From a virus, in IMG/VR virus record IMGVR_UViG_3300049215_000809, positions 1-26,396 of that record: a stretch of 26,396 bases of DNA. One strand, 5' to 3'. A model generated the notes under the pieces. It worked only from the letters and a program-made list of their open reading frames with translations. It made no database searches and had not been told where the DNA came from. This document shows, piece after piece, positions 8,520-24,582 of the stretch; positions within the stretch are counted from its first letter, which is position 1; every line of letters begins with the position of its first letter. The position numbers and the translations under genes were made by a program.

Positions 8520-8525
8520 TACAAT
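8520..8525 (+). promoter_or_regulatory. TACAAT -10-like element before the protease gene
   Basis: TACAAT ends 14 bases before the ATG at 8540, in the intergenic gap. The hexamer is identical to those before the genes at 16454, 17018, 23216 and 24352, but the distance is longer, so a leader of about seven bases would be expected. An AGGAG just upstream is 21 bases from the ATG, too far to act as a Shine-Dalgarno. Confidence 0.45.
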
Positions 8526-8539
8526 AAAAACAAAAATAT

Positions 8540-10231
8540 ATGTCCAACGACACTTTGAAAATCACGGCCGAAGTAGCAGAAGCAATCCGCGCCCGCGTCA
8601 AGTCGCTCGACTTTGGCGCAATTGAGAAGATCAAGAAAGCCGACACGAAAAATGGCACGTTCGATGTCATCGTATCGACCGAGGATACCGATCGCTCGGG
8701 CGAGATCGTCCGGCAAAACGGATGGGAGCTTTCCAACTACAAGAACAACCCGATCGTTCTGTGGGGCCATGACTACTACTCGCTCCCCGTCGGCGTTTGC
8801 ACTGAGACATACCTGACCGAAAAGAACGGCGTCCCCGCCCTTGGCGCGCGCGGCGTTTTCCTTTCCGCCGACATCAACCCATTCGCGCAGCAGGTACGCA
8901 AGCTCTATGAGTTCGGGCTCGGCAAAGGCGAAGGCGTTGGCTGCACCACGTCAGTCGGTTTCATCCCCAAAGAATTTGACGAACAGGCCCGCAATGTCAT
9001 CACCAAAGCGGAGCTGCTTGAATTCTCATTCGTGCCGATCCCTGCCAATCAGGGCGTTGGACCGGCAGCCGGTCGCGCGCTCACCTTTGATGAGGCTAAG
9101 GAACTTCAGCTCGATGTGACCGCCCTGAAAACCAAAGGTCTCGAATTTACCGAGGTGCAGGAGAAAGAATGCAAAGGCGTTGGCGTCTGTGAAGACGGTG
9201 AATGTGATCACGGGCAGAAGGGCAAGAAGGAGGCGCAGGCTGGTGATGCATGTACCACCGATGACGGCAGCCCTGGCGTCCTCACCACAGATCCCAAGGA
9301 CCCTGACGGCGCGCTCGTATGCCTCCCGCAAGACGAGGATAAGGGCTTCAAGGCCGAAGAGAACCGGGCCTCACAAAAGACGCTCATCAAAGCCCTCCAC
9401 GAAGAGCACGAACGCCACACCAGCGAGGTTGAGGACGCTTTCGACGACTTCCGCGACAAGGCTGCCGGCGACGGAAAAGCCATGGGCGAGGCACTCAAAG
9501 ACCTCCGCGCATCCCTCGCCGACGAACACACGATGCATCGCGCCAAAGCTATCGCACTTTTCCGCAGCTTCAATCCAGCCGAAGACAAGGCTTTTAATAA
9601 GAAGGAGCACCTCAAAGCCCTACGCGGCGAACACGAGGGCTACGACGAGAAGTGCATGAAAGGCCTCGACGACTTCGAGGAGCGCTGCATGAAAAGCGTG
9701 CAGGGCGAGCCTGGCTCAGTCGACGAACATACCGACTGGATCACCGGCCGCATGGATGAGAACCAGAAGGCGCACAAAAAGTCCGTCACGAAGATTGCCA
9801 AGGCCATGTGCAAGGACGCCTTCGGTGAAGAGGACCAGGCGGATGAGAAGGTTCTCGCGATATTGAACGAGCATCTCAAGGCCTACGTGCCCGAGGCGCT
9901 CCAGAGAGCCGTGTTCCAGAAGGTGGGCGCCCGCATTTCCGCAGCCACGAGAGAAAAGATCGCGGAGATGCATCAACACATGAAAGCTGCAACCGCCATT
10001 GCGGAAGACCTCCACGGAGGACTCCGGAATGACGATGGGGAGGAAAGCCGCAGCGACGGTGACGGTAAATTGGCACCGGCGACGGCTCCCAAAAAACAAA
10101 GGTCGAGGCCTGCGAAGGATATCCAGAGCGACGAGCTCAATGCTCACTTGCTCTCGAAGGATATTCTGCGCGGGGTTGTTACCGCAGCACAGCGGGGCCT
10201 CGAACAACTGAACAAGAAGCCTCAGCAGTAA
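8540..10231 (+). CDS. HK97-type prohead protease with fused scaffold region
   Basis: A 563-residue protein. Residues about 35-185 form the herpesvirus-assemblin-like S78 protease: His77 in IVLWGHDYY, nucleophile Ser138 in GCTTSVGF, and the following LLEFSFVPIPANQ strand at 159-171. The enzyme cleaves scaffold and the capsid N-arm during maturation. The remaining about 380 residues are long for a protease alone; they are charged and helical (270-500) and probably act as internal scaffold. Residues 234-262 hold a small Cys-containing module, AGDACTTDDGSPG...DGALVCL, also present in the 72-residue protein encoded after the capsid gene. The C-terminus is basic. The start follows a TACAAT element and TATATG. 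Confidence 0.88.
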   Translation: MSNDTLKITAEVAEAIRARVKSLDFGAIEKIKKADTKNGTFDVIVSTEDTDRSGEIVRQNGWELSNYKNNPIVLWGHDYYSLPVGVCTETYLTEKNGVPALGARGVFLSADINPFAQQVRKLYEFGLGKGEGVGCTTSVGFIPKEFDEQARNVITKAELLEFSFVPIPANQGVGPAAGRALTFDEAKELQLDVTALKTKGLEFTEVQEKECKGVGVCEDGECDHGQKGKKEAQAGDACTTDDGSPGVLTTDPKDPDGALVCLPQDEDKGFKAEENRASQKTLIKALHEEHERHTSEVEDAFDDFRDKAAGDGKAMGEALKDLRASLADEHTMHRAKAIALFRSFNPAEDKAFNKKEHLKALRGEHEGYDEKCMKGLDDFEERCMKSVQGEPGSVDEHTDWITGRMDENQKAHKKSVTKIAKAMCKDAFGEEDQADEKVLAILNEHLKAYVPEALQRAVFQKVGARISAATREKIAEMHQHMKAATAIAEDLHGGLRNDDGEESRSDGDGKLAPATAPKKQRSRPAKDIQSDELNAHLLSKDILRGVVTAAQRGLEQLNKKPQQ

Positions 10232-10239
10232 CACTGCGG

Positions 10240-10261
10240 TAGATAGTTTTCACACTATCTA
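10240..10261. repeat. Inverted repeat abutting the capsid gene start
   Basis: TAGATAGT and ACTATCTA make a perfect 8-bp inverted repeat with a six-base loop (TTTCAC). Its last base is the A of the capsid ATG at 10261. The geometry resembles the repeat at the portal start although the sequence differs. It may be an mRNA hairpin tuning translation of the most abundant virion protein or an operator. Confidence 0.5.
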
Positions 10262-11511
10262 TGACACAAGAAGAAATTAAAGCGATGCACGTCACCGCGT
10301 TCGACGAGGTGATGAAAGAGAAGCTTGTTCCGATCATCGACCAGCATTCGATTGCTGCGGCACAGAAGATCGTTAGTGAGCTTCGCATTGAGCGCGCAAC
10401 CTACGGCAAAGACCGAACGGGTCTCTCTGAGAAGACCAAGAAGGACTTTGTCGCCGCCGCACAAGCTGCGGCCAAGGGCATGTTCAACATCGACACCAAG
10501 GCAAATGAGGCCCTGATCGAAGAGCAGGACAATCGCGGAGGCTACCTTGTCTCCCGCGAGATCGCGGACGCCATCGTCCGTATCGCCGCGTCGGTCGGTA
10601 CCATCATGAGCCAAGCGGCCAAGTGGGAGATGACCAGCGATGAGCTCGGTATCCCCAACTACACCGGATCGTTCCTTAAAGGAGCGTACCTCGGCGTTGA
10701 CGCACCGGGCACTGTCACTGGCATTGCCTTCGGACAGGCCCAGCTCATCGCCAAGAAGTGGCAGCTCGCGTTCGTGGTCGGCAACGACCTCCTCGCGGAT
10801 GCCTCGGTCAATGTCGCGGACTGGCTCCTTGCCCTCGGTGGCGAGGCGCTCGCGAACATGATCGACTACCAAGGCTTCGTTGGCGGGTCCAATTCGGGCG
10901 ATCCGTTCTTGGGCATCCTCAACATGCCCTCGACGGCGACTGTCGACGAGACCGGCACGAAGGTTACGTCCTACGTGCTGGGATCAGGTCAGACGACGTT
11001 CGCGAGCTACAAGCTCATGGACGACAGCTCAGCCATGATCGGCGACCTCGAAGAGAGCATCCTCGATGGCGCGGCGTTCTACATGAACCGCACCGTCTGG
11101 GCGAAGCTCCGGGTCGAGAAGGACGGCAACGGGAATTACATCCTGCCGTTCGCAGGCCTCGCGCGTCCGGAGCCCGCGGTCGAGAACCATGCGGGCGGCG
11201 GCCCTATCAAGCCTGCGGGCGAGATATTGGGCTACCCGGTGTACACCAACCGCTGGCTTCCGGCAGTCGGTGCATCGAACGTCAACGGCTTCTCGGACAC
11301 GACGAACACCAACTTCCTTGTCTTCGGCAATATGCGAGCTTTCGCATTCGGTGACAAAGGAGAGATGCGCGTCGGCCAGTTCGAGTCGGGCAGCTTTGGC
11401 GGCAAGGAGATCGCGTTGGCGGACCAGCGCGGCATTGTCTACAAGCATCGCCACGCTCTGACGCTCACGCTTCCACGCGCAATGGTGGTCGCCAAGACCG
11501 CTGGGTCGTAG
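10261..11511 (+). CDS. HK97-fold major capsid protein
   Basis: A 416-residue major capsid protein. Residues 1 to about 85 are charged and helical and correspond to the delta/scaffold arm removed by the upstream protease. The mature HK97 fold begins near EEQDNRGGYLVSREIADAIV (87-106), continues through the spine helix and the P-domain (VVGNDLLADASVNVADWL, YQGFVGGSNSGDPFLGILN), and ends with the A-domain strand segments YPVYTNRWLP and the RHALTLTLPRA terminus. Length and order of these blocks fit the family. It directly follows the protease and its start lies at an inverted repeat. No Shine-Dalgarno is visible. This should be the most strongly expressed gene of the window. Confidence 0.93.
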   Translation: MTQEEIKAMHVTAFDEVMKEKLVPIIDQHSIAAAQKIVSELRIERATYGKDRTGLSEKTKKDFVAAAQAAAKGMFNIDTKANEALIEEQDNRGGYLVSREIADAIVRIAASVGTIMSQAAKWEMTSDELGIPNYTGSFLKGAYLGVDAPGTVTGIAFGQAQLIAKKWQLAFVVGNDLLADASVNVADWLLALGGEALANMIDYQGFVGGSNSGDPFLGILNMPSTATVDETGTKVTSYVLGSGQTTFASYKLMDDSSAMIGDLEESILDGAAFYMNRTVWAKLRVEKDGNGNYILPFAGLARPEPAVENHAGGGPIKPAGEILGYPVYTNRWLPAVGASNVNGFSDTTNTNFLVFGNMRAFAFGDKGEMRVGQFESGSFGGKEIALADQRGIVYKHRHALTLTLPRAMVVAKTAGS

Positions 11512-11535
11512 TTCTCCACATCCTAAGCGTTTTCT

Positions 11536-11561
11536 TGTGGACTCCATTCCTCATGTCCACA
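11536..11561 (+). terminator. Possible hairpin after the capsid gene
   Basis: TGTGGAC and GTCCACA form a perfect 7-bp inverted repeat with a 12-base loop in the 89-base gap downstream of the capsid gene. There is no run of T after it, so it is not a canonical intrinsic terminator; it might limit read-through or protect the capsid mRNA 3' end. Confidence 0.3.
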
Positions 11562-11600
11562 GGGTTTAGGAGTTCGATTACTCGATAACATCTTTACGCC

Positions 11601-11819
11601 ATGGACAACGAATCAAACGTTGACGCTGGCAGCAACAACTCCGGCGAAAGCGTCGTTGACACTACCAACACCGAGAAATCGGATACCGTAGCCGACACGA
11701 CCAACGCGGGAGATGCTGTCGAGCAAAAGGCCGGAGATGCGTGCACCTGCCCTGACGGGAGACCGGGCACGCTCCACGACCAGGACGGCACCCTCGTGTG
11801 CCTCGCAAATCAGGGCTAG
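11601..11819 (+). CDS. Small acidic head protein with AGDACT module
   Basis: A 72-residue protein right after the capsid gene. The first 43 residues are disordered and acidic, rich in Asn, Thr, Ser and Asp. The C-terminal 29 residues (44-72) form a compact module, AGDACTCPDGRPG...DGTLVCLANQG, with Cys48, Cys50 and Cys67. Nearly the same module lies inside the protease/scaffold protein, about 1.5 kb upstream. A role as capsid decoration or cement protein is inferred from position and size. TAACAT nine bases before the ATG is a weak -10 candidate. Confidence 0.7.
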   Translation: MDNESNVDAGSNNSGESVVDTTNTEKSDTVADTTNAGDAVEQKAGDACTCPDGRPGTLHDQDGTLVCLANQG

Positions 11820-11870
11820 TTATCACGCCACGCGGTCGCCCGCCGCAGCCACCGGATCGACGGTGGCAAC

Positions 11871-12416
11871 GTGGCAAATCCAACCACTCATATGCGTTTA
11901 AATCCATATGATGACGTGATGGTACAGCCGTCAACCGTCAGCTCCGTAGCGATCCAATCGCTCACCGGCAGCTCGGCGGTCAACGGCGATGGCGTTGATA
12001 CCGCGCAGGGAGCCCTTATGGGCGGCGCTGAATCAATCATGGTTCACGTCCGCGCGGAGATTGCCTCGGGTTCACCGAGCGCTGCTACCGTCGCTTGGGC
12101 TCTTCAGGAGTCCAATGACAACGGCAGTACCGATTCGTACGCGGCAGCGAACGACAACACCGGCACTGCGATCGGCGGGACGCTCAACGTCCACACGACC
12201 GCGCAGGACGCGTACGCTCGTATTGAAGGTATCAACCTTCAAAACACGGGCTTGTCGGCGGCGCCCAAAGGCGGCCGCAAGCGCTGGCTGCGCATCGTGC
12301 TCACGCCCGCGTTCACCAGCGGCACCTCGCCTGCCATTCTCACCGTCGCCGAGTTCATCGGCGCGCCCGGCAACGGTGTTCAGCTCCCTGTGCGCACGGC
12401 AGTCTCGAATACCTAG
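11871..12416 (+). CDS. Probable head decoration or accessory virion protein
   Basis: A beta-rich protein of 181 residues if started at GTG 11871, or 174 from the ATG at 11892 (CATATG context, which I find equally plausible). The N-terminus is short and flexible, followed by a domain with AESIMVHVRAEIASGSPSAA, ALQESNDNGST and a KRWLRIVLTPAFTSG strand; the pattern resembles small jelly-roll-like capsid auxiliary proteins. It lies between the capsid gene and the connector, where decoration proteins are usual. The family is not recognised by name. No Shine-Dalgarno precedes either start. Confidence 0.7.
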   Translation: MANPTTHMRLNPYDDVMVQPSTVSSVAIQSLTGSSAVNGDGVDTAQGALMGGAESIMVHVRAEIASGSPSAATVAWALQESNDNGSTDSYAAANDNTGTAIGGTLNVHTTAQDAYARIEGINLQNTGLSAAPKGGRKRWLRIVLTPAFTSGTSPAILTVAEFIGAPGNGVQLPVRTAVSNT

Positions 12417-12472
12417 TATTCTCGCTTTGCTCATGCCACGCGTGAGCGGCGACGAGGACGCTACCTCGATGT

Positions 12473-13348
12473 ATGGAGCAAGTTTCACCGTTTGCATTGA
12501 CGACGCTTCAGCGGGTTAAAGACCTGCTTTTTGACCCTAACCTTACGATTACTGTCACAGGCACAACCGCCAACGCCTCTCCGACTGTTACGAGTGCGAG
12601 CTTCCAAGCCGGGAAGACAGTGCGCGTGGGCCAGGTCATAAGCGGTACGGGCATTCCGAGCGGTACCACGGTCTTGGCCTTCACGAGCAACTCACTGACG
12701 CTCTCTCAAAATGCAACTGCGGACGGTACAGGCGTGTCACTCGCCATCATCGATCAGCCCGTCGCGTTCGACGCGGTGCTCACGCGGATGATAAATTCGG
12801 TCTCAAACTACATCGGCAATGAGTGTGGGCGTCCCACCGGCTTCGTTCAGCAAACATACGTCAATGATACCTATTCGATAGACACGCCACGCCAAAGTTT
12901 CCTCGTTCTCCGAAACACGCCCGTTTTCTCGCTCACAAGCCTTCAGTGGCGTGCGGGTACACCCACCAACCCGAGCTGGACCGATTTCATCGCCGACCAG
13001 TACGAGCTGGTGAACCCCCGCACCGATCCGATCACCGGACAGGTCTGGTATCCCTCCGGCATGGTGCGCATTTACGGCGTTCTGCCGCGCATCTACAGCA
13101 ATATGATCCGGGCTACCTATGTCGCGGGCTATCCGGTCAACTGGGCCAACGCAGGCGACCACAACACGCATCTTCTTCCTGACGATCTAACCGCGATGGC
13201 TGAAAATCTGACGGTGCGGCGCTTCAAAAAACGCCAACTCGGCGGCAAGAGCGCGGAGGGTCTGTCAGGCGCGACCGAGACCTGGCGCAATGAAATCGAC
13301 GCCGAAGACATCGACGTTATCAACCAGTACAAAGACGTGCACTTTTAA
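12473..13348 (+). CDS. Head-tail connector (HK97 gp6-like) with inserted beta module
   Basis: A 291-residue adaptor expected to form the ring under the portal. The gp6-like helical start is visible as TTLQRVKDLLF (10-20) and resumes at AFDAVLTRMINSVSNYIGNECGR (98-120), followed by beta strands and a C-terminal helix. Between the two helices, where family members normally have a short loop, there is an insert of about 70 residues (25-93) with GQVISGTGIPSGTTV and LTLSQNATADGTG. The same type of module is inserted in the tail tube protein. An out-of-frame ATG sits four bases upstream (ATGTATG). The connector assignment follows from these helices and gene order. Confidence 0.82.
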   Translation: MEQVSPFALTTLQRVKDLLFDPNLTITVTGTTANASPTVTSASFQAGKTVRVGQVISGTGIPSGTTVLAFTSNSLTLSQNATADGTGVSLAIIDQPVAFDAVLTRMINSVSNYIGNECGRPTGFVQQTYVNDTYSIDTPRQSFLVLRNTPVFSLTSLQWRAGTPTNPSWTDFIADQYELVNPRTDPITGQVWYPSGMVRIYGVLPRIYSNMIRATYVAGYPVNWANAGDHNTHLLPDDLTAMAENLTVRRFKKRQLGGKSAEGLSGATETWRNEIDAEDIDVINQYKDVHF

Positions 13349-13353
13349 ATGAC

Positions 13354-13803
13354 GTGAATTTCAACGTACAAATCGTCGGCCTGAGTGCTCTTATCGAAAA
13401 GCTTCAACAAGCGCCCTCTATCGCTGCGCCAATTTTGCAGCGCGCGCTTTCCGCATCTCAGGCAATTCTCGCAAAGTACACTACGAAGGATACGGTGCCA
13501 TGGCGCACCGGCTTCCTAGCCCAGACATTCCGCGCCCAGCTCACGACCGGTGTGCTCCGCTGGTTTCCCACCGCGAGCTACGCGCCCTACGTGGAGTTTG
13601 GCACCAAGCCGCACACAATCCTGCCCCGCGACGCAAAGGCGCTCTACTGGCCGGGCGCTGAGCATCCCGTGAAGCGCGTCAATCATCCAGGCACGCGCGC
13701 TAACCAATTCATGGAGCGCATCATTGCAGCTTCACAAGATGACATCGATGAGGCTTTCGGAACGGCCTTGTCGCAGATTGTCGCTCAACTCGCCGCGCAA
13801 TAA
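13354..13803 (+). CDS. HK97 gp10-like head-tail joining protein
   Basis: A 149-residue protein with the family signature SYAPYVEFGTKPH (about 74-86) followed by a Pro-rich loop and a C-terminal helix. HK97 gp10-like proteins act in head-tail joining or tail completion. The only suitable start is GTG at 13354, five bases after the previous stop; the ATG at 13349 is followed immediately by ACG TGA and is out of frame. It lies between the connector and the tail terminator, exactly where this family is found. Confidence 0.88.
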   Translation: MNFNVQIVGLSALIEKLQQAPSIAAPILQRALSASQAILAKYTTKDTVPWRTGFLAQTFRAQLTTGVLRWFPTASYAPYVEFGTKPHTILPRDAKALYWPGAEHPVKRVNHPGTRANQFMERIIAASQDDIDEAFGTALSQIVAQLAAQ

Positions 13804-13809
13804 GGAGAT

Positions 13810-14271
13810 ATGCCCACTGACCTCGCAAAACCACTGAAGGAACAGATACTCGTAAATCTACAGGCGCTCGCCGCGGCTGGCAGCATTAACTCGTACTACT
13901 CCCTCGATGCCAACCCAAACCCGCTTAGTGTCGAGCCCACTGGCGGCTACCCGTTCGCTATCGTCGGCATGCCGCGCGTCGCAAGCGACTACGAAGATCA
14001 AGCGACAAACAAGCGCACATATCGCTTCGATCTTCTCTTCGTCCTCGATCCAACGGCACTCCAAAATCCTGACACTGATGTGGAGCACTTGGTCGACGCA
14101 ATTCTGAACCAATTCGACAACAATTTCACGCTTGCGGGAAATGCGACGGCTACGGTTCTGCCGGCCGAGATTGAAAGCGTGCCCGTATCCACAGGAGACA
14201 AGGCACTTCTTTGTGTGGTGGTAACATTGAAATGTCAGACACTTTACGAGTGGTCAAATTCTAATCCATGA
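13810..14271 (+). CDS. Probable tail terminator protein
   Basis: A 153-residue protein after the gp10-like gene and before the tail tube, the position of the tail terminator that caps the growing tube and docks to the head. The sequence shows a helix (PLKEQILVNLQALAAAG), a beta segment with FAIVGMPRVASDYEDQ, then RTYRFDLLFVLDP and a helix beginning DVEHLVDAILNQFDNNF, the alpha-beta pattern of gpU-like terminators. AAGGAG lies only two bases before the ATG, too close for standard use. The stop overlaps the next start (ATGA at 14268-14271). Confidence 0.72.
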   Translation: MPTDLAKPLKEQILVNLQALAAAGSINSYYSLDANPNPLSVEPTGGYPFAIVGMPRVASDYEDQATNKRTYRFDLLFVLDPTALQNPDTDVEHLVDAILNQFDNNFTLAGNATATVLPAEIESVPVSTGDKALLCVVVTLKCQTLYEWSNSNP

Positions 14272-14498
14272 GCCTCGATCAGCCAGACAAAAACAAAATG
14301 ATGACCGCTCCTCCCGCCAAGAAGGAGTTTCATTTCGCGGGAACGCTCGAACATTTTGCGGAGGTCGTTTACGCCGCAACTATCGAGGAGGCGGAAGCTA
14401 TCTATCACCGCATTAAGCGTCCCACCGGCACAATCATCGGCACAGCTCCCCGCTCCGAGCAATCCACAGCTGCCGTTGACGAGGAGATTAAGCAGTAA
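14268..14498 (+). CDS. Small hypothetical tail-region protein
   Basis: A 76-residue hydrophilic protein coupled to the tail terminator by an ATGA overlap. After a disordered 18-residue start it contains KEFHFAGTLEHFAEVVYAAT followed by a helix IEEAEAIYHRIKRP, a small beta-beta-helix arrangement, and ends with a polar tail. It is just before the tail tube gene. I recognise no family; a chaperone or minor tail component is possible but unproven. Confidence 0.65.
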   Translation: MSLDQPDKNKMMTAPPAKKEFHFAGTLEHFAEVVYAATIEEAEAIYHRIKRPTGTIIGTAPRSEQSTAAVDEEIKQ

Positions 14499-14501
14499 AC
14501 T
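14496..14501 (+). promoter_or_regulatory. TAAACT -10-like element, 8 bases before tail tube ATG
   Basis: TAAACT ends eight bases before the ATG at 14510 and overlaps the stop of the preceding gene. The same hexamer precedes the gene at 20331 by six bases. A TTGACG lies 14 bases upstream, a short spacing for a -35. A leaderless or near-leaderless tail tube mRNA is suggested. Confidence 0.4.
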
Positions 14502-14509
14502 ACATCTAT

Positions 14510-15679
14510 ATGTCTGCGCAAAAAGGTATCGGGCGTCTCATCCAGATCGGCCTCGCAAAAGAGAGCGCCCGCGGCGTCGCACAGTCCTCAGCCTCATATT
14601 GGAATCCTTGGTCCGATCTCACACTCGACGAGAAGAAGGAGTTTGTCGCCGACGAGCAGAGTTACGGCATCATTGAGGACAACGTCGGCCTGACGCAGAC
14701 GAAGAAATGGGCGCAAGGATCTCTGGCTGGCAACGTTGCTGACCAAACCATCGGTCTTATCCTCTATTCGCTTTTTGGCGGCTACACAGTTACCGGCTCC
14801 GGCCCGTACACCCACACCTTCAGCATCGCTGAAAGCGCCCAGCATCAGAGCCTCACACTCTTCAAGCACGACCCGCTTGCGGCGGTCGACTACTCGTATG
14901 CTAACGGCATCGTTGAGAAGCTTGAGCTTTCGATGGAGCTCAAGAAGTTCATTGCCTTCACCGCATCGCTCATGGCGCAGAGTGGAGTCTCGCAATCGAA
15001 CTTCTCGCCGTCCACCACCTCGGAAAACCGCTTCGTTCCCCAGTATCTCGCGGCCAAATTCGCTCTCAACTATGCCGGCCTCCAAGGGACGCTGACGGCG
15101 ACCGGCACCGCCTCCAGCACCGTCCACGTCACGTCGTGCAGCATCAATCCGCAGACGAACCTTAAAGTTGGAATGACCGTCACGGGCACGAATATCCCGG
15201 CCAATACGACGGTCGCGAAGATTGTGTCATCGTCCGCATACGACCTCTCGCAGGCTACCACCGGTGCCATTGGCACGCAGACCTTCGGTCCTGTCGCTAT
15301 CGCCCTCAAAAGCGCAAAGGTGACCATCAATCAAAACGTTGAGGCACAAGACGTGCTCGGCAGCTTGTCGCCCGCGGACTTTCTGAATAAGGAGTTTTCT
15401 GTCGAGGGGACATTCGAGGCGATCTTGCAGAACGAAAGCGACTTCAAGACCCAGTTCATGGGGCCGACGCCGCTATCGGTGCGCCTCGACTTGCTTAACA
15501 GCGATGTCAGCAATTCAGAACTCTACCTCGACATGCCGAAAGTAACCCTGCAAGAGTACGGCACACCGTACAAAGTCAAAGACCTCGTTTATCAGAACGT
15601 GAAATTCAAGGCCTCATATTCCATCAGCGATACTCTGCTCGCGAAGATGGTGCTCACCAACTCCGTCACCACCTACTAA
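14510..15679 (+). CDS. Major tail tube protein
   Basis: A 389-residue protein placed between the tail terminator and the tail chaperone/tape measure genes. The N-terminus (GIGRLIQIGLAKESARGVAQ) and segment KEFVADEQSYGIIEDN fit the start of siphophage tube proteins, and the C-terminal part with FSVEGTFEAILQNE and NVKFKASYSISD fits tube beta strands. Residues about 194-263 are an inserted module with VGMTVTGTNIPANTTV, which resembles the insert of the connector protein; here it falls between two strands (ALNYAGLQG and ALKSAKVTINQ) and would project from the tube surface. The length, above the common 200-250 residues, reflects this insert and other loops. Confidence 0.82.
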   Translation: MSAQKGIGRLIQIGLAKESARGVAQSSASYWNPWSDLTLDEKKEFVADEQSYGIIEDNVGLTQTKKWAQGSLAGNVADQTIGLILYSLFGGYTVTGSGPYTHTFSIAESAQHQSLTLFKHDPLAAVDYSYANGIVEKLELSMELKKFIAFTASLMAQSGVSQSNFSPSTTSENRFVPQYLAAKFALNYAGLQGTLTATGTASSTVHVTSCSINPQTNLKVGMTVTGTNIPANTTVAKIVSSSAYDLSQATTGAIGTQTFGPVAIALKSAKVTINQNVEAQDVLGSLSPADFLNKEFSVEGTFEAILQNESDFKTQFMGPTPLSVRLDLLNSDVSNSELYLDMPKVTLQEYGTPYKVKDLVYQNVKFKASYSISDTLLAKMVLTNSVTTY

Positions 15680-15680
15680 T

Positions 15681-15927: not shown

Positions 15928-15929
15928 GT

Positions 15930-16441: not shown

Positions 16442-16447
16442 TACAAT
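16442..16447 (+). promoter_or_regulatory. TACAAT -10 element, 6 bases before ATG
   Basis: TACAAT is followed by exactly six bases (GAGCTC) and the ATG at 16454, the geometry of a leaderless promoter with transcription starting at the A of ATG. No convincing -35 is seen upstream. Confidence 0.55.
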
Positions 16448-16453
16448 GAGCTC

Positions 16454-16792
16454 ATGAATAGAGAAACAAAGGAGTTCACCACGCCGGGCGGACGCAAAGT
16501 CGTTTTACACGCATATCTCACCGGCCGCGAAGCCGCTGACATCAAGAGCACAATGCTTTCATCCCTCAGGATGAGCATGACCGATCTTGAGAACAAGAAG
16601 GTAGACATGGGCGGCATATCCGGCGCCGTGCTCGTTGAGCAAGAAAAGAAAACGCTCGGCTATTTGCTGGTTTCAGTTGACGGAGATTCCAGCACGCCTG
16701 TCGACAGGCTGCTCGATCTTCCATCAACCGAGTACGACGCGGTACTCACCGAAGTCGAAAAAATCAAAAACCCTACGAAGCCGGGGAATTAA
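16454..16792 (+). CDS. Tail assembly chaperone (gpG-like)
   Basis: A 112-residue protein just upstream of the tape measure. It starts MNRETKEFTTPGGRKVVLHAYLTGREA and continues with a helical region to EKIKNPTKPGN, the pattern of siphophage tail assembly chaperones, which coat the tape measure before tube assembly. An in-frame upstream extension exists but lies beyond a gap and lacks sense; the ATG at 16454 sits six bases after TACAAT. A second ORF in the -1 frame (16786-16980) carries the typical chaperone extension, so a longer fusion of about 175 residues is expected from ribosomal frameshifting. Confidence 0.8.
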   Translation: MNRETKEFTTPGGRKVVLHAYLTGREAADIKSTMLSSLRMSMTDLENKKVDMGGISGAVLVEQEKKTLGYLLVSVDGDSSTPVDRLLDLPSTEYDAVLTEVEKIKNPTKPGN

Positions 16793-17003: not shown

Positions 17004-17009
17004 TACAAT
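17004..17009 (+). promoter_or_regulatory. TACAAT -10 element, 8 bases before tape measure ATG
   Basis: TACAAT lies eight bases before the ATG at 17018, in the 37-base gap after the frameshift ORF. A TTGAGA occurs 21 bases upstream; the same 21-base spacing to TTGCCA is seen at the 24340 element, though 21 is long for a -35/-10 pair. Confidence 0.5.
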
Positions 17010-17017: not shown

Positions 17018-18679
17018 ATGTCCGACACGCAATTGCAGATCGTCCTTTCTCTCATTGATAACGCCTCCGCTCAGCTCCAGGAGGCGCAAGGCGCATTTGC
17101 GAACCTCGGACAAGCAGGCAGCGACGCCGCAGCACAAATAACCGACGCTCTCACGCCCGCCGAAGAAGCAGTGGTCGCGCAAGCGCAGGCGGTATTCGAC
17201 GCGTGGGCAGGGACCAACGACAACATAGTGGAGAGCGCCGATTCAGCTGTTAGCGAGGTGGAGGATGCCTGGGCGGCCCTCCCGACCGCCGTGCAAGCCC
17301 CCATGGATGCTCTCGCACAGCAGATGCAGACGGAAATGCAGCAAATAGCAGTTGAAGCGCAGGCTGCCGGCGAAGAGTGGGCGCAAGGCTTGGTACCCGC
17401 CGCGACAAAAGCCGGTGAGGAGGCCGGAACGGCCGCAGCTGAAGGCTTTGGCGGCTACTTCAAGAAAATGATAATTGGGTACGGGCTGGAACAAGTCGGT
17501 TCGTTTCTCTCCGGCGGCATAGACTCGGCAGTAGCGGCCGCTGCGCAGAGCCAGGATAAGATATCTACCCTCACTGCGCAGATACAACAGCAGCAAGCAT
17601 CCATCGCAGAAAATGAGGCCGCTTTGCAGCGGTGGAGCGGCACCACCACGCAGGTCAACGCCGCACACCAAAAGGCTGCCGCGAACATCGACGCTGAAAA
17701 GGCAAAGATAACGGAGCTCACCCAACAGCTTGCGCCACTCACGCAAGCCCAACAAGGATTGCCGGGACAGATTCAAAGTATAGAAAATGCGATTTTGGGC
17801 TGGGTAGGCGCCCACAAGCAGCTTGAGACTTCGCTTCAAACATTCATGACGACGCTCGGGCCGATGCTTACGTTTATAGGCGCGGCCTTAATTGTTATCA
17901 CCCTACTCAGTGTTGCTCTCTCCGTTCTCGATGGTCCGCTGCTTATTTTGCTCGGCGTGGCTGCGGCCATAGCCGTTCTCACAGGCATATGGGAGACCTT
18001 CCACACTCAGATCACCAATTTTTTAGACGACCTGAACGCCAAGACCGGGATCGTCGATCTTTTCAGAGTAGCATGGCAGAGCATCTCAGATAATTTCAAC
18101 GACAACCTCAAGCCGGCACTTGAACAACTCTGGAAGGCTTTGCAGCCGCTTACACCATATTTGGAAGCCATGGCCGAAGTTGTCGGCGCAACGCTGCTGG
18201 GCGCCATTGTATTGCTCACCGACGCGCTCACCATAGCGATCAACGTCTTTACCGGCATACTCACGATCGCCACCAAGGTGGCCACCTTTTTCACCGACGT
18301 ACTGGTTGTGGCTATCAATGCCGTAAAGACCGCCATTGAAGCTGTCATCACTGCGGTTAGCAAAGTTGGCAGTGTAGGCGGGGCGATAGGCGGTGCGATC
18401 AGCAGCACACTTGCACATATTCCAGGCTTCGCCACCGGCGGCATCGTCACCGGTCCAACGCTCGCCATGGTCGGCGAAGCCGGACCTGAAGCCATTATTC
18501 CGCTGTCGGCTTTTGCGGGAGGCAGTTCGCTTGCGGGAGCGGGCGGCATTGGCGGTGGAGCGGGCATTCAGGTTTTCATTCAGGGCGGCACGTACCTCGA
18601 TCAGAATGGCGCAACAACAATCGCCAACGCACTTGCGCGTCAAATCCAGATGCAGATCAAGTTACGCAATTTCGCTTAA
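17018..18679 (+). CDS. Tail tape measure protein
   Basis: A 553-residue protein that sets tail length and is ejected at infection. It begins with Ala/Gln-rich helices (residues 15-140), has a coiled-coil region with repeated Gln/Glu (180-245), a long hydrophobic stretch (about 278-325) able to insert into membrane, a second helical hydrophobic region (385-445), and the common tape-measure C-terminal signature GFATGGIVTGPTLAMVGEAG followed by PEAIIPL (470-496). At roughly 1.5 angstrom per residue the tail would be about 80 nm, a modest siphovirus length. It follows the chaperone/frameshift genes as expected. Confidence 0.9.
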   Translation: MSDTQLQIVLSLIDNASAQLQEAQGAFANLGQAGSDAAAQITDALTPAEEAVVAQAQAVFDAWAGTNDNIVESADSAVSEVEDAWAALPTAVQAPMDALAQQMQTEMQQIAVEAQAAGEEWAQGLVPAATKAGEEAGTAAAEGFGGYFKKMIIGYGLEQVGSFLSGGIDSAVAAAAQSQDKISTLTAQIQQQQASIAENEAALQRWSGTTTQVNAAHQKAAANIDAEKAKITELTQQLAPLTQAQQGLPGQIQSIENAILGWVGAHKQLETSLQTFMTTLGPMLTFIGAALIVITLLSVALSVLDGPLLILLGVAAAIAVLTGIWETFHTQITNFLDDLNAKTGIVDLFRVAWQSISDNFNDNLKPALEQLWKALQPLTPYLEAMAEVVGATLLGAIVLLTDALTIAINVFTGILTIATKVATFFTDVLVVAINAVKTAIEAVITAVSKVGSVGGAIGGAISSTLAHIPGFATGGIVTGPTLAMVGEAGPEAIIPLSAFAGGSSLAGAGGIGGGAGIQVFIQGGTYLDQNGATTIANALARQIQMQIKLRNFA

Positions 18680-18682
18680 TGT

Positions 18683-20314
18683 ATGCCTGCATCTTCTATT
18701 ACCGTCCTCGATGGCGAAAATGACATAACGTCGCTCATCGAGTTTGACAGCACCTTCAATATTCAGAGCGTGCTGACGAAAGAGAAAGGTCAGTTCACGT
18801 TCAATATAAAAGCTCCGCAGGCACCTACGCTGCCCGCGCATATGCCTCAGATCACGGACACGATCAGCGTCTACTATACGATCAACGACAACACGCAGCT
18901 CATTTTCGGCGGGACCGTCGTCACCATCGAGCCGATCGTCTCCGGTGGGGTATTGCTGCTCTACCAAATCACCGTCGCGGATTGGGGCTTTCTCTTCGAC
19001 TCAAAGGTGGTGAAAGCAAACTACGCGGGCATGGACCCGCAAGATATCGTCAAGGACCTCGTATCGAATTTCTGCCCCGGCTTCACCACAAACCATGTCC
19101 AGAAAGGCAACTTTCTCGTTTCAACGGTTCAATTCAACTATCAGTTTCCGACCAAGTGTCTTGAGGCGCTTGCCAAGCAAATCGGTTGGGACTGGTACAT
19201 CGGCCCCGACAAAGACGTGCACTTCTATTTTGCGGAGGGTAATCCGGCAGGCAGCTCGGAAATCTCACTTGCGCCCTTCGACATCGACGATACGAGCGGA
19301 AACATCGAATGGCGGACGCTCGATGTGCAGGTCGACATCAGCAACATGAAAAATAGCGTGTACGTCGTCGGCGGGACGTACGCGAAGAATTTCGTACTTG
19401 ACCCTGACTCTATGGCGACACCGCCGCAGTATGCGCCGGTTGACGTGTACACGTCCGTCGCCGGCACGTTCGTCTATCCGCTCGCCTATCCCTATGACGC
19501 GAGCACGCTGACGATAACGCTCGGCGGCGTTGGGCAGGCCATCGGAACCGACCAGCAGACCGATCCCACGACAGTTCAGGTGCTCTACAACGAAACGGGC
19601 CGCTTCATCCGCTTTACGACCGATCCAGGTGACGGCAACCAGATCATCGTCCAAGGCCAGGCCAAAATCCCTATCCTCGCCCACGTCTCGGACGCCAGCT
19701 CCATCAACGCCTACGGCGAACTTCAGGACGCTATTCTGGATTCCAATATTTTGAGCATTCAGGAGGCGCAGGAGCGCGCCCAGGCCGACATAGATATGTT
19801 CGGCGATCCGGTCTACTTGGTGAAATTCACCACCATTTCTCCCCTGTCCAATCTGCTTTTCATCGGCCAGCAGATCACGCTCAACTCCGCTAAATTCGGG
19901 GTTTCGGACAAGACGCTGGTCGTTAAGCAGATCAATTGCGTGGCGCGCACGCCCACTCAACTTGAATACCAAGTGCAATGCCTTGGCTCGGATAACGTGA
20001 CCTTCAACGACATTATGCTCACGCTGCTTCAGCAGAACCTCGGTGTAACATCGACGCCCGACTCTGCGGTGTTGCAAGTACTGCTATCACTCGATGAAGC
20101 GCTTGAGCTTACCGACACCGTTTCGATTAGCGCCGCGTCAGGTCCTTACGCATGGGGACCGTTGTCTGCCGCTGTAGAGAATGTCGAGGGCGCCGAGATG
20201 TATGGGTCCTTTGGATTCGGGTCCGTGGCGATAGGAGGCGGGCTGCCCTATGCAGATGATGCCGCCGCGACTACCCAGCCCACGGGACGCTGGGGATTCT
20301 TTACTTGGCACTAG
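18683..20314 (+). CDS. Tail hub / baseplate protein
   Basis: A 543-residue protein directly after the tape measure. The N-terminal domain (ITSLIEFDSTFNIQSVLTKEKGQ split by loops, then a VADWGFLFDSKVV segment) and the alpha-beta middle with DPQDIVKDLVSNFCPGF and KCLEALAKQIGWDWYIGPDK match the tail hub fold of Mu gp44/T4 gp27-like proteins, which form the ring at the tail tip and bind fibres. The C-terminal about 80 residues (after LQQNLGVTST) are low-complexity and Gly-rich and may anchor fibres. No separate distal tail protein is seen between this gene and the tape measure. The start uses an ATGTATG context. Confidence 0.78.
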   Translation: MPASSITVLDGENDITSLIEFDSTFNIQSVLTKEKGQFTFNIKAPQAPTLPAHMPQITDTISVYYTINDNTQLIFGGTVVTIEPIVSGGVLLLYQITVADWGFLFDSKVVKANYAGMDPQDIVKDLVSNFCPGFTTNHVQKGNFLVSTVQFNYQFPTKCLEALAKQIGWDWYIGPDKDVHFYFAEGNPAGSSEISLAPFDIDDTSGNIEWRTLDVQVDISNMKNSVYVVGGTYAKNFVLDPDSMATPPQYAPVDVYTSVAGTFVYPLAYPYDASTLTITLGGVGQAIGTDQQTDPTTVQVLYNETGRFIRFTTDPGDGNQIIVQGQAKIPILAHVSDASSINAYGELQDAILDSNILSIQEAQERAQADIDMFGDPVYLVKFTTISPLSNLLFIGQQITLNSAKFGVSDKTLVVKQINCVARTPTQLEYQVQCLGSDNVTFNDIMLTLLQQNLGVTSTPDSAVLQVLLSLDEALELTDTVSISAASGPYAWGPLSAAVENVEGAEMYGSFGFGSVAIGGGLPYADDAAATTQPTGRWGFFTWH

Positions 20315-20318
20315 GTGC

Positions 20319-20324
20319 TAAACT
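20319..20324 (+). promoter_or_regulatory. TAAACT -10-like element, 6 bases before ATG
   Basis: TAAACT is followed by six bases (TTCGGT) and the ATG at 20331. The hexamer equals that before the tail tube gene. It lies in the 16-base gap after the hub gene, so a leaderless transcript is geometrically possible. Confidence 0.42.
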
Positions 20325-20330
20325 TTCGGT

Positions 20331-20957
20331 ATGAACTCTACGGCGCGGGACGGAATTTCGATCTCGGGCACAATCAAAATCAACACATACCGCGCCGGCA
20401 TGGTGCAGGCTGCTGCGCCTTATCTCAAGTTGATTTCACACCTCAAAGAGCGTCTCGCCAGCGGCGGGCCTCGTGCTAGCTCAGAGCTCTGGATACGCCG
20501 GTATATCGGATCTGTTGAGGCGATAAAACGACTGCACTTCATTAAAACCGCCGTTGTCTGTCCAAACCTCGTCATGGACAGTCCGAACTACGGCATCGAC
20601 CTTGTCATTCAGCGCCTCGTCGGCGTGAACACTTACAGCCTCAATATCCTCTACGGCGAGATCGGGACCGGCGCGACAGCACCGACACTTGCCGATACCG
20701 CTCTAACGACTCCCACAAATCGAGCCAGCGTTGGCTTTCAACAGAACTACGGCTCTACCGACGCGATCTTTCAATTCTTCTTTTCCGACTCTCAGCTTGC
20801 CAACCAAACCTACAGCGAATTTGGCACCTTCGTTGACGGAAACACAACGATCGGAAGCGGCCAACTCTTCAATCATTCCTTGCTCTCGCCAACCTACCAA
20901 AAAGTGTCGGGTCAAGACACAACGGTCGAAGTCGACTTCGCCATCGCCAACTCCTAG
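20331..20957 (+). CDS. Minor tail / fibre-attachment protein
   Basis: A 208-residue protein between the hub and the adhesin. The first part has SGTIKINTYRAGMVQ and a basic helix with HLKERLASGG; the second half (about 100-208) is a beta domain opening LYGEIGTGATAPTLADTALTT and containing EFGTFVDGNTTIGSGQLFNH. That beta domain is one I associate with phage fibre and baseplate accessory proteins. Its location suggests it links the fibre to the tail tip. It has no signal peptide. The start follows TAAACT by six bases. Confidence 0.72.
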   Translation: MNSTARDGISISGTIKINTYRAGMVQAAAPYLKLISHLKERLASGGPRASSELWIRRYIGSVEAIKRLHFIKTAVVCPNLVMDSPNYGIDLVIQRLVGVNTYSLNILYGEIGTGATAPTLADTALTTPTNRASVGFQQNYGSTDAIFQFFFSDSQLANQTYSEFGTFVDGNTTIGSGQLFNHSLLSPTYQKVSGQDTTVEVDFAIANS

Positions 20958-20984
20958 ATATCAACAGCGAGCAGTACACGACGA

Positions 20985-20990
20985 TATAAT
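20985..20990 (+). promoter_or_regulatory. TATAAT -10 element, 8 bases before adhesin ATG
   Basis: A perfect TATAAT is followed by eight bases and the ATG at 20999, in the 41-base gap after the minor tail gene. It also lies within a short A/T-rich inverted repeat (ATATA and TATAT, 20984-21000). TCAACA 18 bases upstream is a weak -35. Confidence 0.55.
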
Positions 20991-20998
20991 GGCGCTAT

Positions 20999-22879
20999 AT
21001 GCGCAGTTACTCAGTCGTGGCGGGCGAAAATGCCCTTGCTCAGCAATTTATTAATCTCAGGCACGATGCGCGCGGCGGCAGTTTCCTTCTCCCGCACCAG
21101 CAGCTTGGAGCCTTGGCGCTCGGCACTGAACCCGCCGATGGCGACACAATCACCTTCGCCATCAATGGCAATAATGTTGTCCTTACCGCTAAGACCACCC
21201 TCGGCACTACGCCAGGCCAAGTTCTGATCGGTGGAAGCGCCGCAGCTTTTGCTGCCAACGTCCTCTCTCTTCTAAACCAGCCGCAGACAACCAGCTCAAC
21301 TGGCGTCGCCCTTTCGACAGCGAATCAACAGCTTGTTTCTTATCTCAATTGGGCGCTGTCAGGGACGACGATCACGTCGGGCAGCAATAACACGTCGCTG
21401 TACGCACCCCTTTCGAGCTTTAGCGCTTCAACGACTACCTCGGGCAATTCATGGACGGGACAAACCATGGAGCTCTACGTCGAGCCCGGTGTCGTTTATG
21501 TCAATGGCACGCGCGTGATCTTTAGCGGCGGCAGTTCGCCAACGATCACCGCTCCAACCTCGCATCCGCGTATCGATCTTCTCACAATTGACAACACCGG
21601 CACGCTGGCGGTCACTGCCGGCACAGAGAACGCATCGCCGTCAGCGCCGACTTATCCTGCCGACAAAGTTGTCTTGTGTGAGATTTACAATGTCGTGGGC
21701 GAGACAGCGATTTATGACAATGAAAATCAGCAAAGCGGTGAAGGCTATGTCTATCACGATGTGCGGCCGTTCCTCGGTCTGCAATTCAACCCAGCGGCGA
21801 TAACCGACACGCTTCTGCCCGCATCTGCCGGTGCATATGACATCGGCAGTGTGAGCGTCCCTTGGGGTAATATCTATACCGACAACCTTTTCGTAAACGG
21901 CGCGTCACCCGGCCTCGCGCGATTTGGCGGCGACGGCAGCGACGGCGCACTTTCGATTACCTCGGGCACCACCACGATCAACTGCGGCGGTGCCAATCTT
22001 GTTGTCAAAAACTACTCAAGCATCAGCATCACAGGAACCGGGAAACTCGCCTTCTCGAATACCGCATCCAATGGCACCTTCGTCATCCTTCGCTCACAAG
22101 GCGGAGTGACGCTTACTTCCTCTACCGCGCCGATGATTGACTGCTCGGCACTCGGTGCAGCGGCCGGCTCGGCAGGAACGGCGGGCACTAACGGATTTGC
22201 ATTCTTCGGCACTCCAGCTTCGGGAGCGGCCGGAAGCACCGCCACGGGAGGCAACGGCGGTACTGGACCCGGCTCCGTTCTGCTTCAAACACTCATGCTC
22301 TATACGCGGTTCTTCCGCGTATTTACGGGCGCCGGTGGAGCGGGCGGCGCTGCGGGACATAACGGCAGCAACGACGGTGCTGGTGGTGCCGGTGGAGCGG
22401 GAGGCGGCTCGCTCATTATCGAATGCGGCGGCTCGCTCAATTTCACCACCTCAGGCGGCATCTCAGTCGCTGGTCAAAACGGTTCGACCGGCGGCACAGG
22501 TACCTCGTCGGGCGGAGGAGGCGGTGGTGGAGGCGGTGGCGCGGGTGGCTCTTGCTTCATCCTCTACAACTCACTCACGGCCGCTTCGGGCTCGATTACG
22601 GTCTCGGGCGGCACAGGAGGACAAGGTGGCACTGCTGCGGGAGGTTCTGGCGCTGCTGGAGGTTCGGGCGGCAGCGGCCAATCAGGCAGTGGCTCGGGCG
22701 GCAATGGCGGAACGACCGGCGGAGGTGGTGCCGGTGGTGGCGGTGGCGGTGGTGGCGGCTCCGATGCCGGCATGACAAACGGCAGCAGCGGATCGAACGC
22801 ACTCGGCACACCGGGCAGCGGCGGAGGCGGCGGCGCTTCCGGCTATCAAGCGATCATAAAAAACACGTTCTTCTCATGA
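20999..22879 (+). CDS. Tail fibre / poly-glycine adhesin
   Basis: A 626-residue receptor-binding candidate. Residues 1-120 include a DGDTITFAINGNNVVLTAK module common in phage virion proteins; 150-300 is a beta fibre region with DIGSVSVPWGNIYTDNLFVNG, a typical fibre connector. From about 385 the protein is dominated by glycine-rich blocks (385-425, 443-470, 486-518, 536-616) separated by short hydrophobic strands such as SLIIECGGSL and SCFILYNSL. This recalls the poly-glycine-II sandwich of the phage S16 gp38 adhesin, whose loops set host specificity. The last residues (YQAIIKNTFFS) cap the domain. The stop overlaps the next start (ATGA). Confidence 0.8.
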   Translation: MRSYSVVAGENALAQQFINLRHDARGGSFLLPHQQLGALALGTEPADGDTITFAINGNNVVLTAKTTLGTTPGQVLIGGSAAAFAANVLSLLNQPQTTSSTGVALSTANQQLVSYLNWALSGTTITSGSNNTSLYAPLSSFSASTTTSGNSWTGQTMELYVEPGVVYVNGTRVIFSGGSSPTITAPTSHPRIDLLTIDNTGTLAVTAGTENASPSAPTYPADKVVLCEIYNVVGETAIYDNENQQSGEGYVYHDVRPFLGLQFNPAAITDTLLPASAGAYDIGSVSVPWGNIYTDNLFVNGASPGLARFGGDGSDGALSITSGTTTINCGGANLVVKNYSSISITGTGKLAFSNTASNGTFVILRSQGGVTLTSSTAPMIDCSALGAAAGSAGTAGTNGFAFFGTPASGAAGSTATGGNGGTGPGSVLLQTLMLYTRFFRVFTGAGGAGGAAGHNGSNDGAGGAGGAGGGSLIIECGGSLNFTTSGGISVAGQNGSTGGTGTSSGGGGGGGGGGAGGSCFILYNSLTAASGSITVSGGTGGQGGTAAGGSGAAGGSGGSGQSGSGSGGNGGTTGGGGAGGGGGGGGGSDAGMTNGSSGSNALGTPGSGGGGGASGYQAIIKNTFFS

Positions 22880-23163
22880 CGCCCGACGAAATTCAAAAAT
22901 GCATACACGACGGCATAGCGCGAGGCCTCGCTGACCAGTTACCCGCAGCAGTCTCCGCTGCCGTCAACACGGCGGTTAATGGCAAGATCACAAAGCTCGC
23001 TAACGACGTTGCGCCTCTCGTGAACGTCTACAACAGTTATTTATCCTGGAAGAAAGGCGCTCTCATTTGGATTGGCGTTCTACTTGCCCTTGGCGGATTC
23101 ATCCAAGCGATGCAGGCCATCTACGGCATCATCTCAAACTACTTCACCATCAATCTCCGCTGA
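22876..23163 (+). CDS. Single-TM membrane protein, holin-like candidate
   Basis: A 95-residue protein starting at the ATG that overlaps the adhesin stop (22876-22879). The first 60 residues are helical and polar (EIQKCIHDGIARGLADQLPA), followed by KK and one transmembrane helix at about 61-90 (GALIWIGVLLALGGFIQAMQ onward). The layout resembles XhlA-type or phage tail-end membrane proteins that assist lysis. It precedes the cell-wall enzyme genes. A longer in-frame reading upstream is an Arg-rich shadow of the Gly-rich gene and is not used. Confidence 0.68.
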   Translation: MTPDEIQKCIHDGIARGLADQLPAAVSAAVNTAVNGKITKLANDVAPLVNVYNSYLSWKKGALIWIGVLLALGGFIQAMQAIYGIISNYFTINLR

Positions 23164-23203
23164 ACGCGGGTGGATAACCGGATGAGCTCGCCGATTCGGG
23201 CCG

Positions 23204-23209
23204 TACAAT
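23204..23209 (+). promoter_or_regulatory. TACAAT -10 element, 6 bases before ATG
   Basis: TACAAT, six bases (GAAAGC), then ATG at 23216, in the 52-base intergenic gap. This is the same arrangement as at 16442 and 24340 and fits a leaderless start. No clear -35 is visible. Confidence 0.55.
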
Positions 23210-23215
23210 GAAAGC

Positions 23216-24301
23216 ATGCCCAAGCAACTAGGCGTGCTACCGGATACCCGTACGCCCGAGCAAAAAGAATTCGATATCCTCCGCAACGAAGTCGCATCTG
23301 GCGAGTCGGCCACTGCCACGTATGTGAGCCCAGACGCGGCGAAAAGCTACGTCCGGAAATTTCCGATCGACGATCAATTTCAAACCAGTTCATGTGTCGC
23401 GCACGGCAAAGTGCTGGCGGCCAGTATTTTTATGTACATGAGCGATATCACGCCGAGCTTCGTGCAGCTCTCTTCCATGTTTCTCTACCGCAATCGAAGC
23501 AACTATCCCGAAGCCGGCATGATACCCGCGAGCGCCGATACGCAGTTTGAGCAAGCCGGCGCACCGCCCTATGCCGACATCCCGACGCCGCAGACCGAGG
23601 AAGAAGCCAACGCCCTGCCAACTCCTGATGCCGCGACCACGCAAGCCGCTAAGCTCTTTGCCGGGTTGCGCTGGGTAACGCTTGTCGATCCGACCGACTT
23701 TGAGACTATCGCTTACGTCTCCAACAACGAAAGCACTCCACTAAATATTCTGATCTACGCGACTGAGCAGGAATGGTCGCAACCGACTGTGGAAATACTC
23801 AGCCAGGGCTTGCAGCAGAGTGATCCGAGTGCCGTGATCCGCCACTGTGTCACGGTCTTGCCGAACTCCGCCTACGTTCTCAACGGGAAGGGATACGTAG
23901 TCATCCAAGACTCGGTCGGTTACGGAGACACCTACTTCCGCGCCGTGAGCGAGGACTTTATCAAAGCGCGCTGCTACGAGTGCGCTTATCCGATCTCATT
24001 CGACAACACGCCCGTCCTCACTCGACCGACATACACCTTTAATACCGATCTCACCGTCGGATCGACCGGGCCGGACGTAGTCGCACTCCAGCAAATTCTT
24101 CAGTACTTAGGATATTTACCGAACGTCCTCAACGACACGCCGTTCGCGCCAACGGGCACCTATGCCGGACTCACCAAAGCCGCCGTCCTGCAACTCCAAA
24201 ACGAATACGCGGCCGAGATACTGACGCCGGCAGGGCTCACCGTTGGGACCGGGTATTGCGGCGCCTCGACGCGCGCGTTCCTTAATAAGCTCTTCGGTTA
24301 G
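23216..24301 (+). CDS. Papain-like cysteine protease with peptidoglycan-binding domain
   Basis: A 361-residue protein in the lysis region. Residues about 48-262 look like a papain-family (C1) domain: Gln54 and Cys60 in DDQFQTSSCVAHG have the Q-x5-C spacing of the oxyanion Gln and nucleophile, His210 lies in AVIRHCVTVL, and IQDSVG (230-235) matches the usual I-x-N-S-W-G with Asp232 replacing Asn. Residues 275-361 are a PG_binding_1-type domain (LTVGSTGPDVVALQQILQYL through GYCGASTRAFLNKLFG). No signal peptide is seen, so export would need the holin. It could cut cross-links or surface proteins as an unusual endolysin, or be a virion-associated enzyme. The Asn-to-Asp change leaves activity uncertain. 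Confidence 0.78.
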   Translation: MPKQLGVLPDTRTPEQKEFDILRNEVASGESATATYVSPDAAKSYVRKFPIDDQFQTSSCVAHGKVLAASIFMYMSDITPSFVQLSSMFLYRNRSNYPEAGMIPASADTQFEQAGAPPYADIPTPQTEEEANALPTPDAATTQAAKLFAGLRWVTLVDPTDFETIAYVSNNESTPLNILIYATEQEWSQPTVEILSQGLQQSDPSAVIRHCVTVLPNSAYVLNGKGYVVIQDSVGYGDTYFRAVSEDFIKARCYECAYPISFDNTPVLTRPTYTFNTDLTVGSTGPDVVALQQILQYLGYLPNVLNDTPFAPTGTYAGLTKAAVLQLQNEYAAEILTPAGLTVGTGYCGASTRAFLNKLFG

Positions 24302-24339
24302 TTATCCCCACGTTGCCAACACCCCTGCGCGAGCATGGG

Positions 24340-24345
24340 TACAAT
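24340..24345 (+). promoter_or_regulatory. TACAAT -10 element, 6 bases before ATG
   Basis: TACAAT, six bases (TGAGTC), then ATG at 24352, in the 50-base gap after the protease gene. TTGCCA occurs 21 bases upstream. Geometry fits a leaderless transcript. Confidence 0.55.
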
Positions 24346-24351
24346 TGAGTC

Positions 24352-24582
24352 ATGAACCAGATGTTGCTAGGAGCATTGCGTGCAATCGGTGCGCTCGTTT
24401 TCTTTACGGTAGCAACGGCGTTCGTCGGCATAATTCCCGACGTTCTTACCCAGCTACCGTTGGTTGGCTCGTTCGTCACCCCCGCGATATCGGCAGGTCT
24501 TACCGCTCTAGCGCTCGGCTACGAGCACAAGCTGGCGGTCTCGTGGGGTTACAATCTCCCCGCTGGTTCTACTCAGGAATAG
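24352..24582 (+). CDS. Two-TM holin candidate
   Basis: A 76-residue protein with two predicted transmembrane helices, about residues 6-28 and 36-57, joined by a short Pro-containing turn (IIPDVLTQLPLVG), and a polar C-terminal tail. Size and topology fit a class II-type holin, which opens the membrane for the cell-wall enzymes. It lies between the papain-like/peptidoglycan-binding gene and the transglycosylase-like gene, a typical lysis cassette position. No family motif is recognised, so another small membrane role remains possible. Confidence 0.65.
   Translation: MNQMLLGALRAIGALVFFTVATAFVGIIPDVLTQLPLVGSFVTPAISAGLTALALGYEHKLAVSWGYNLPAGSTQE

Follow-up and report, generated by a model that had tools for sequence, protein, structure and literature searches.

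The question raised by this locus is whether the late genes of a phage are expressed from leaderless transcripts, i.e., mRNAs whose 5′ end coincides with the start codon or lies no more than two bases from it. The window, the whole 26.4-kb stretch of DNA analyzed here (positions 1 to 26,396 of IMG/VR virus record IMGVR_UViG_3300049215_000809), is a tailed phage, as judged from its structural gene content. A first-pass annotation had listed TANNNT hexamers that end a few bases, mostly 6 or 8, before an ATG and had read them as −10 boxes of separately started, leaderless late mRNAs. All of the listed boxes were present in the window with their spacings. The boxes and the genes, which were assigned via PHROGs and Pfam, are collected in Table 1, where the gap is the number of bases between box and start codon.

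Megablast of the window against phage records gave zero matches, the phage collection being without similar DNA, and for the terminase and portal the best matches listed were other phages at 22 to 27% identity. Relatives were instead collected by scans of viral contigs. The terminase yielded 48 contigs (L001 to L013 at 69 to 88% identity and the remainder at 46 to 54%), the tail tube yielded 13 contigs, and the N terminus of the tape measure yielded three loci; scans with the tape-measure protein and with the 23216 protein gave zero matches. L001 to L013 and the tail-tube loci are referred to as the close clade, and G004 to G013 are the long relatives. The clade statistics are based on 331 ATG starts called by a simple script. 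For 17 late genes, starts were additionally placed by homology, and a box was counted within gaps 5 to 15. Within the window, positions 5956 to 8366 encode two repeat-rich proteins amid conserved head genes; a convincing relative was absent from the compared loci, and these proteins are possibly decoration or cargo.

Table 1. Genes, boxes, and the capsid-start repeat in the window
Feature	Position	Strand	Remarks
Terminase small subunit-like gene	1–534	+	Named by position, without family match; starts late block; upstream region beyond window edge
Terminase large subunit (TerL)	712–2175	+	PHROG 38, E = 3e-61; own box absent
Predicted −10 box TACGCT, gap 12	3001–3006	+	Portal; within inverted repeat; TGCTANNNTT-type box in 12/13 orthologous starts, mostly gap 12
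Portal with Mu-F-like domain	3019–5298	+	PHROGs/Pfam
Predicted −10 box TACAAT, gap 14	8520–8525	+	Protease-like gene; 6/10 orthologues, others farther off; distance varies
Protease-like gene	8540–10231	+	PHROGs/Pfam
Inverted repeat AGATAGT-TTTCAC-ACTATCT	10241–10260	+	Ends at capsid start codon
HK97-type capsid	10261–11511	+	PHROGs/Pfam
Predicted −10 box TAACAT, gap 9	11586–11591	+	Gene 11601–11819; inside conserved TTACTCGGTAACATCT; 7/8 orthologous starts
Small gene	11601–11819	+	
Head-tail adaptor	Start 12473		PHROGs/Pfam
Neck	Start 13354		PHROGs/Pfam
Predicted −10 box TAAACT, gap 8	14496–14501	+	Tail tube; 15/16 orthologous starts, 11 at gap 8
Tail tube	14510–15679	+	PHROGs/Pfam
TACAAT, gap 6	16442–16447	+	Gene 16454–16792; weak conservation, 2/16 orthologous starts
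Gene downstream of TACAAT 16442	16454–16792	+	
Predicted −10 box TACAAT, gap 8	17004–17009	+	Tape measure; at least 7/10 orthologous starts, gap 6 or 8
Tape measure	17018–18679	+	PHROGs/Pfam
Hub	Start 18683		PHROGs/Pfam
Predicted extended −10 box TGC-TAAACT, gap 6	20319–20324	+	Tail fiber-like gene 20331; 4/7 orthologous starts
Tail fiber-like gene	20331–20957	+	PHROGs/Pfam
TATAAT, gap 8	20985–20990	+	Before 20999–22879; 2/8 orthologous starts
Gene downstream of TATAAT 20985	20999–22879	+	
TACAAT, gap 6	23204–23209	+	Before 23216–24301; basis, window sequence
Endolysin/PG-binding match, weak	23216–24301	+	Family searches
TACAAT, gap 6	24340–24345	+	Before ORF 24352–24582; basis, window sequence
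Small ORF	24352–24582	+	

Position and sequence of the boxes

Seven of the 21 curated ATG starts in the window have a TANNNT exactly 6 or 8 bases upstream, compared to 1 of the 210 ATGs located inside these coding sequences (Fisher's test, p = 1.4e-7). Among the 331 starts of the close clade, TANNNT was found at gap 6 in 6.6%, at gap 7 in 1.2%, and at gap 8 in 8.8%, with smaller peaks at gap 9 (4.5%) and at gaps 11 and 12 (4.2% each) over an internal ATG background of 0.2 to 0.5% per gap. Positional enrichment across relatives was thus confirmed, with gaps 6 and 8 as the peaks in the close clade. A motif-free scan of all gapped three-letter patterns at all distances ranked TA...T third at distance 8 and near the top at distance 6 as well; the two patterns in first and second place only reflect the sequence TATATG at starts. 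Raw counts of TANNNT-N6/8-ATG in the window showed a modest excess, with 10 sites on the plus strand and 8 on the minus strand against a mean of 3.9 in plus-strand shuffles. Because these counts are only modestly raised, the minus-strand TAGTAT-N6-ATG at 8472, which had been offered as a further example of the same geometry, carries no weight by itself; it is indistinguishable from background, and the 38-aa ORF behind it is without a relative.

The bases around the boxes resemble those of a promoter. A G is found two bases 5′ of the box in 68% of 75 boxed starts, as in an extended −10 element, and TGn precedes the box in 23 of the 75, against an expectation of 4.5% (about 3); the motif matches the sigma-70 extended −10. 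No −35 element above chance was detected at any spacing at the boxed starts, and a clear −35 was not seen at the starts upstream of the terminase. RNA polymerase favors a purine at +1 that is preceded by a pyrimidine. The predicted +1 is the seventh base past the box, and in 26 of the 27 starts that have the fuller motif it is A. This is automatic at gap 6 (8/8), where it is the A of the ATG, but not at gap 8 (18/19). Among the 25 gap-8 starts, position −2 is occupied by A in 23, −1 by T in 24, and −3 by a pyrimidine in 24. At gap 7, +1 would mostly be T or C, against the preference for transcription starts, which accounts for the scarcity of this spacing. The position of the boxes, the +1 purine, the extended −10 G, and conservation in orthologues support the reading that these −10 boxes place the predicted 5′ end no more than 2 bases from the ATG.

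Conservation and predicted transcription units

The terminase small subunit-like gene carries a box in 11/11 relatives' starts, at gap 6 in 8 and at gap 7 in 3. The first half of the tail tube box is the TAA stop of the preceding ORF; the box is nonetheless kept in nearly all orthologues (Table 1). Boxes before the tape measure are kept though most of the proteins share only 24 to 31% identity. The TACAAT at 8520 exists as annotated, but it would give a short-leadered rather than a leaderless start; for the portal and protease boxes alike, the predicted leaders are about 5 bases or more.

Most late genes are without a box. The proposal of many separate late mRNAs was borne out in part. Conserved boxes at the terminase small subunit-like, portal, protease-like, 11601, tail tube, tape measure, and 20331 genes speak for it, but at least eight late starts are without a conserved box, i.e., TerL (box in 1/14 orthologous starts), the capsid (only 3/12, overlapping the inverted repeat), 12473, 13354, and 13810 (0), 14268 (3/15), 16454 (2/16), and the hub at 18683 (1/12). 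A conserved box is also missing at 20999 (2/8). The box-less late genes are probably cotranscribed in short operons. Since some genes are boxed and others are not, the late block probably consists of several short transcription units, neither one operon nor one mRNA per gene.

From the position, sequence, and conservation of the boxes and the absence of Shine-Dalgarno (SD) motifs, all of which were observed directly, we infer that the boxes act as promoters and set the 5′ ends, that translation is leaderless, and that the polymerase is the host's, and we give the following model a probability of about 80%. A sigma-70-type RNA polymerase would read the late (virion) genes from several promoters, each consisting of an extended −10 alone (GnTANNNT, often TGnTANNNT) without a recognizable −35. 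RNA would begin with the start codon's own A at gap 6 and with the first A of AT-ATG at gap 8, and the late mRNAs would have a leader of 0 to 2 bases without SD and be translated by the leaderless route. A short SD-less leader, at least a few bases long, would precede the portal, protease-like, and 11601 genes. Short polycistronic mRNAs would carry the genes between boxed starts, most of whose ATGs adjoin the preceding stop codon, with a preference for U at −1.

Some starts carry additional sequence features. The inverted repeat around the portal box (2996 to 3018; relatives' version, GGTGCTANNNTTAAAGCACC) may serve as an operator or form a 5′ hairpin. The TTACTCGGTAACATCT element before 11601 (sixteen bases; window 11575 to 11594) is conserved beyond the needs of a −10 box. 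In several relatives a repeat similar to that at the capsid start is kept, with substitutions in its paired bases; one relative has an unlike repeat (GGGGCATTACTGCCCC), and in others a repeat is absent. Sequences similar to the CGAGG..CCTCG repeat before 12473 (12440 to 12472) and to CCACCG-GATCGA-CGGTGG before the GTG at 11871 (11830 to 11870) occur in some relatives. The hairpin signal before starts in general is merely about 2-fold over internal ATGs.

Shine-Dalgarno use and alternative explanations

SD use was compared in six near-full relatives, where starts in the 26 kb that follow the terminase small subunit-like gene were taken as late. SD5 was found at 2 of 109 (2%) late starts versus 10 of 29 (34%) starts upstream of the terminase (Fisher's test, p = 2e-6), the latter being a small sample of noisy calls that is early by position, not by timing. 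T at −1 was found at 73% of late starts versus 24% upstream of the terminase, and at 76% of box-less stop-abutting starts, 80% of boxed starts, and 15% of internal ATGs. A U before AUG can reportedly lengthen the pairing with initiator tRNA, a finding attributed to Esposito in 2003. The pooled late ortholog groups held one SD. An SD accompanies 1.3% of the boxed starts, and TANNNT 10 to 12 bases upstream of the start exceeds expectation, in agreement with the definition of TA-led genes as SD-less starts with such a motif (Zheng 2011). The contrast in SD use suggests that the start mode changes as infection moves from its early to its late phase. A switch of translation mode by the phage itself, from SD-led early genes to nearly SD-free late genes with leaderless or U-AUG starts, where altered host initiation (e.g., the IF2/IF3 ratio or anti-SD) could favor late mRNAs as a class, is in our judgment unlikely. 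The early/late contrast inside one genome offers a direct way to test whether phages alter the mode of translation initiation of their host.

One alternative is that the host makes general use of leaderless mRNAs and that the boxes are its ordinary promoters, with nothing specific to the phage. Leaderless mRNAs are known from alphaproteobacteria; in Caulobacter, 9.6% of coding sequences are leaderless and 75% are without SD (PMC4117421). Each of the three Acidobacteria analyzed was predicted to have TA-led genes (mean, 13.3%; PMC3160421); in the Acidobacterium metagenome-assembled genome G001, TANNNT stands at gap 6 in 3.3 to 5.6% of starts. However, G001, which is not the window's host, uses SD (34 to 43% versus 14%), and the late phage genes do not. 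A Methylobacterium proxy, likewise not the window's host, showed SD at 44% versus 18% and TANNNT at gap 6 in 0 of 118, and within the same phages, starts upstream of the terminase use SD more than late genes do. We regard this explanation as somewhat unlikely.

It is very unlikely that one or a few promoters read through the late block and that the TA-rich boxes are AT-rich start signals for SD-less translation. SD-less genes commonly have AT-rich, G-poor starts, and the more distant clade (L016 to L050) is SD-less, with A-rich, G-poor start regions and no dominant −10 box, but AT-richness alone predicts neither the −10 letters, the extended −10 G, and the fixed distance to a purine +1 nor the scarcity of gap 7. 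Recognition of the late promoters by a phage-encoded or alternative sigma factor would fit the lack of a detectable −35, and −10-only late promoters recall those of T4. The late motif nevertheless matches the sigma-70 extended −10, and a Pfam scan of ten non-late proteins of relatives, covering a minority of the early genes, found no sigma factor, which leaves this explanation distinctly improbable.

The extended −10-only, leaderless reading has counterparts elsewhere. Late promoters of the Thermus phage phiYS40 are said, in work of Sevostyanova from 2007, to have a single −10-like element. The majority of its middle and late transcripts are leaderless (PMC3594737). The present clade shares leaderless late genes with phiYS40, predicted here from sequence alone and known there from experiments; the differences are the unrelated thermophilic host and reported IF2/IF3 changes of phiYS40 and, in the present clade, gap-8 (AT-ATG) starts as common as those at gap 6. 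Middle and late promoters of another Thermus phage, P23-45, belong to an extended −10 class that is less affected by gp39, a protein that displaces sigma region 4 (PMC7403470). The predicted late promoters of the present clade are likewise extended −10 elements without −35, and a polymerase-remodeling factor was not found among the ten proteins scanned against Pfam. In phages of this type, early genes would differ in having −10/−35 promoters; in the present clade the early/late difference observed is one of SD use, a clear −35 being absent upstream of the terminase. We infer that the clade resembles phiYS40 and P23-45 late expression in promoter geometry. In TA-led leaderless bacterial genes (Zheng 2011, PMC3160421; Deinococcus −10 motif, PMC12340547), a TANNNT likewise precedes the start codon by about 12 bases and SD is absent. 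Those genes are chromosomal, whereas in the present clade the starts are those of phage late genes, the extended −10 G is strong, and gap 8 makes up a second class. Caulobacter, of the probable host class here, has leaderless and SD-less starts as well; these are chromosomal and experimentally mapped, whereas the present ones were read from sequence (PMC4117421). As far as the literature we found goes, phage-wide leaderless late expression is documented for Thermus phages, and finding the same promoter geometry in uncultured soil phages whose host is probably an alphaproteobacterium would suggest that the strategy arose or persists outside thermophiles. Annotation that expects SD could misread start codons and operons of such phages.

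Host of the clade

At the end of the long relative G013, an EF-Tu gene, tRNA-Gly, and tRNA-Tyr adjoin phage genes, one of which is common to other close relatives (junction L085 1–790). The EF-Tu fragment matches Methylobacterium at 92.7% identity, several further copies in the plasmid collection (from Paenibacillus, Sphingomonas, and others) at 85 to 88%, and three Acidobacteriota at 73 to 80%. On this one junction, the host of G013 is probably alphaproteobacterial. Acidobacteria were rejected as the host of the close clade, since the EF-Tu fragment is nearer to Methylobacterium than to the three Acidobacteriota, the Acidobacterium prophage is distant (50% terminase identity), and an equally close relative occurs in only 1 of 396 Acidobacteriota genomes. 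The contig that carries this prophage is 232 kb long; the contig's own genes use SD, and 3 to 6% of them show TANNNT at gap 6. The repeat-rich protein at 5956 to 7644 suggested Patescibacteria as a host candidate. In the relative G005, a gene for a DUF87/TrwB-like ATPase has its ATG directly behind the 3′ end of a tRNA-Gln gene (L071 6647–6719).
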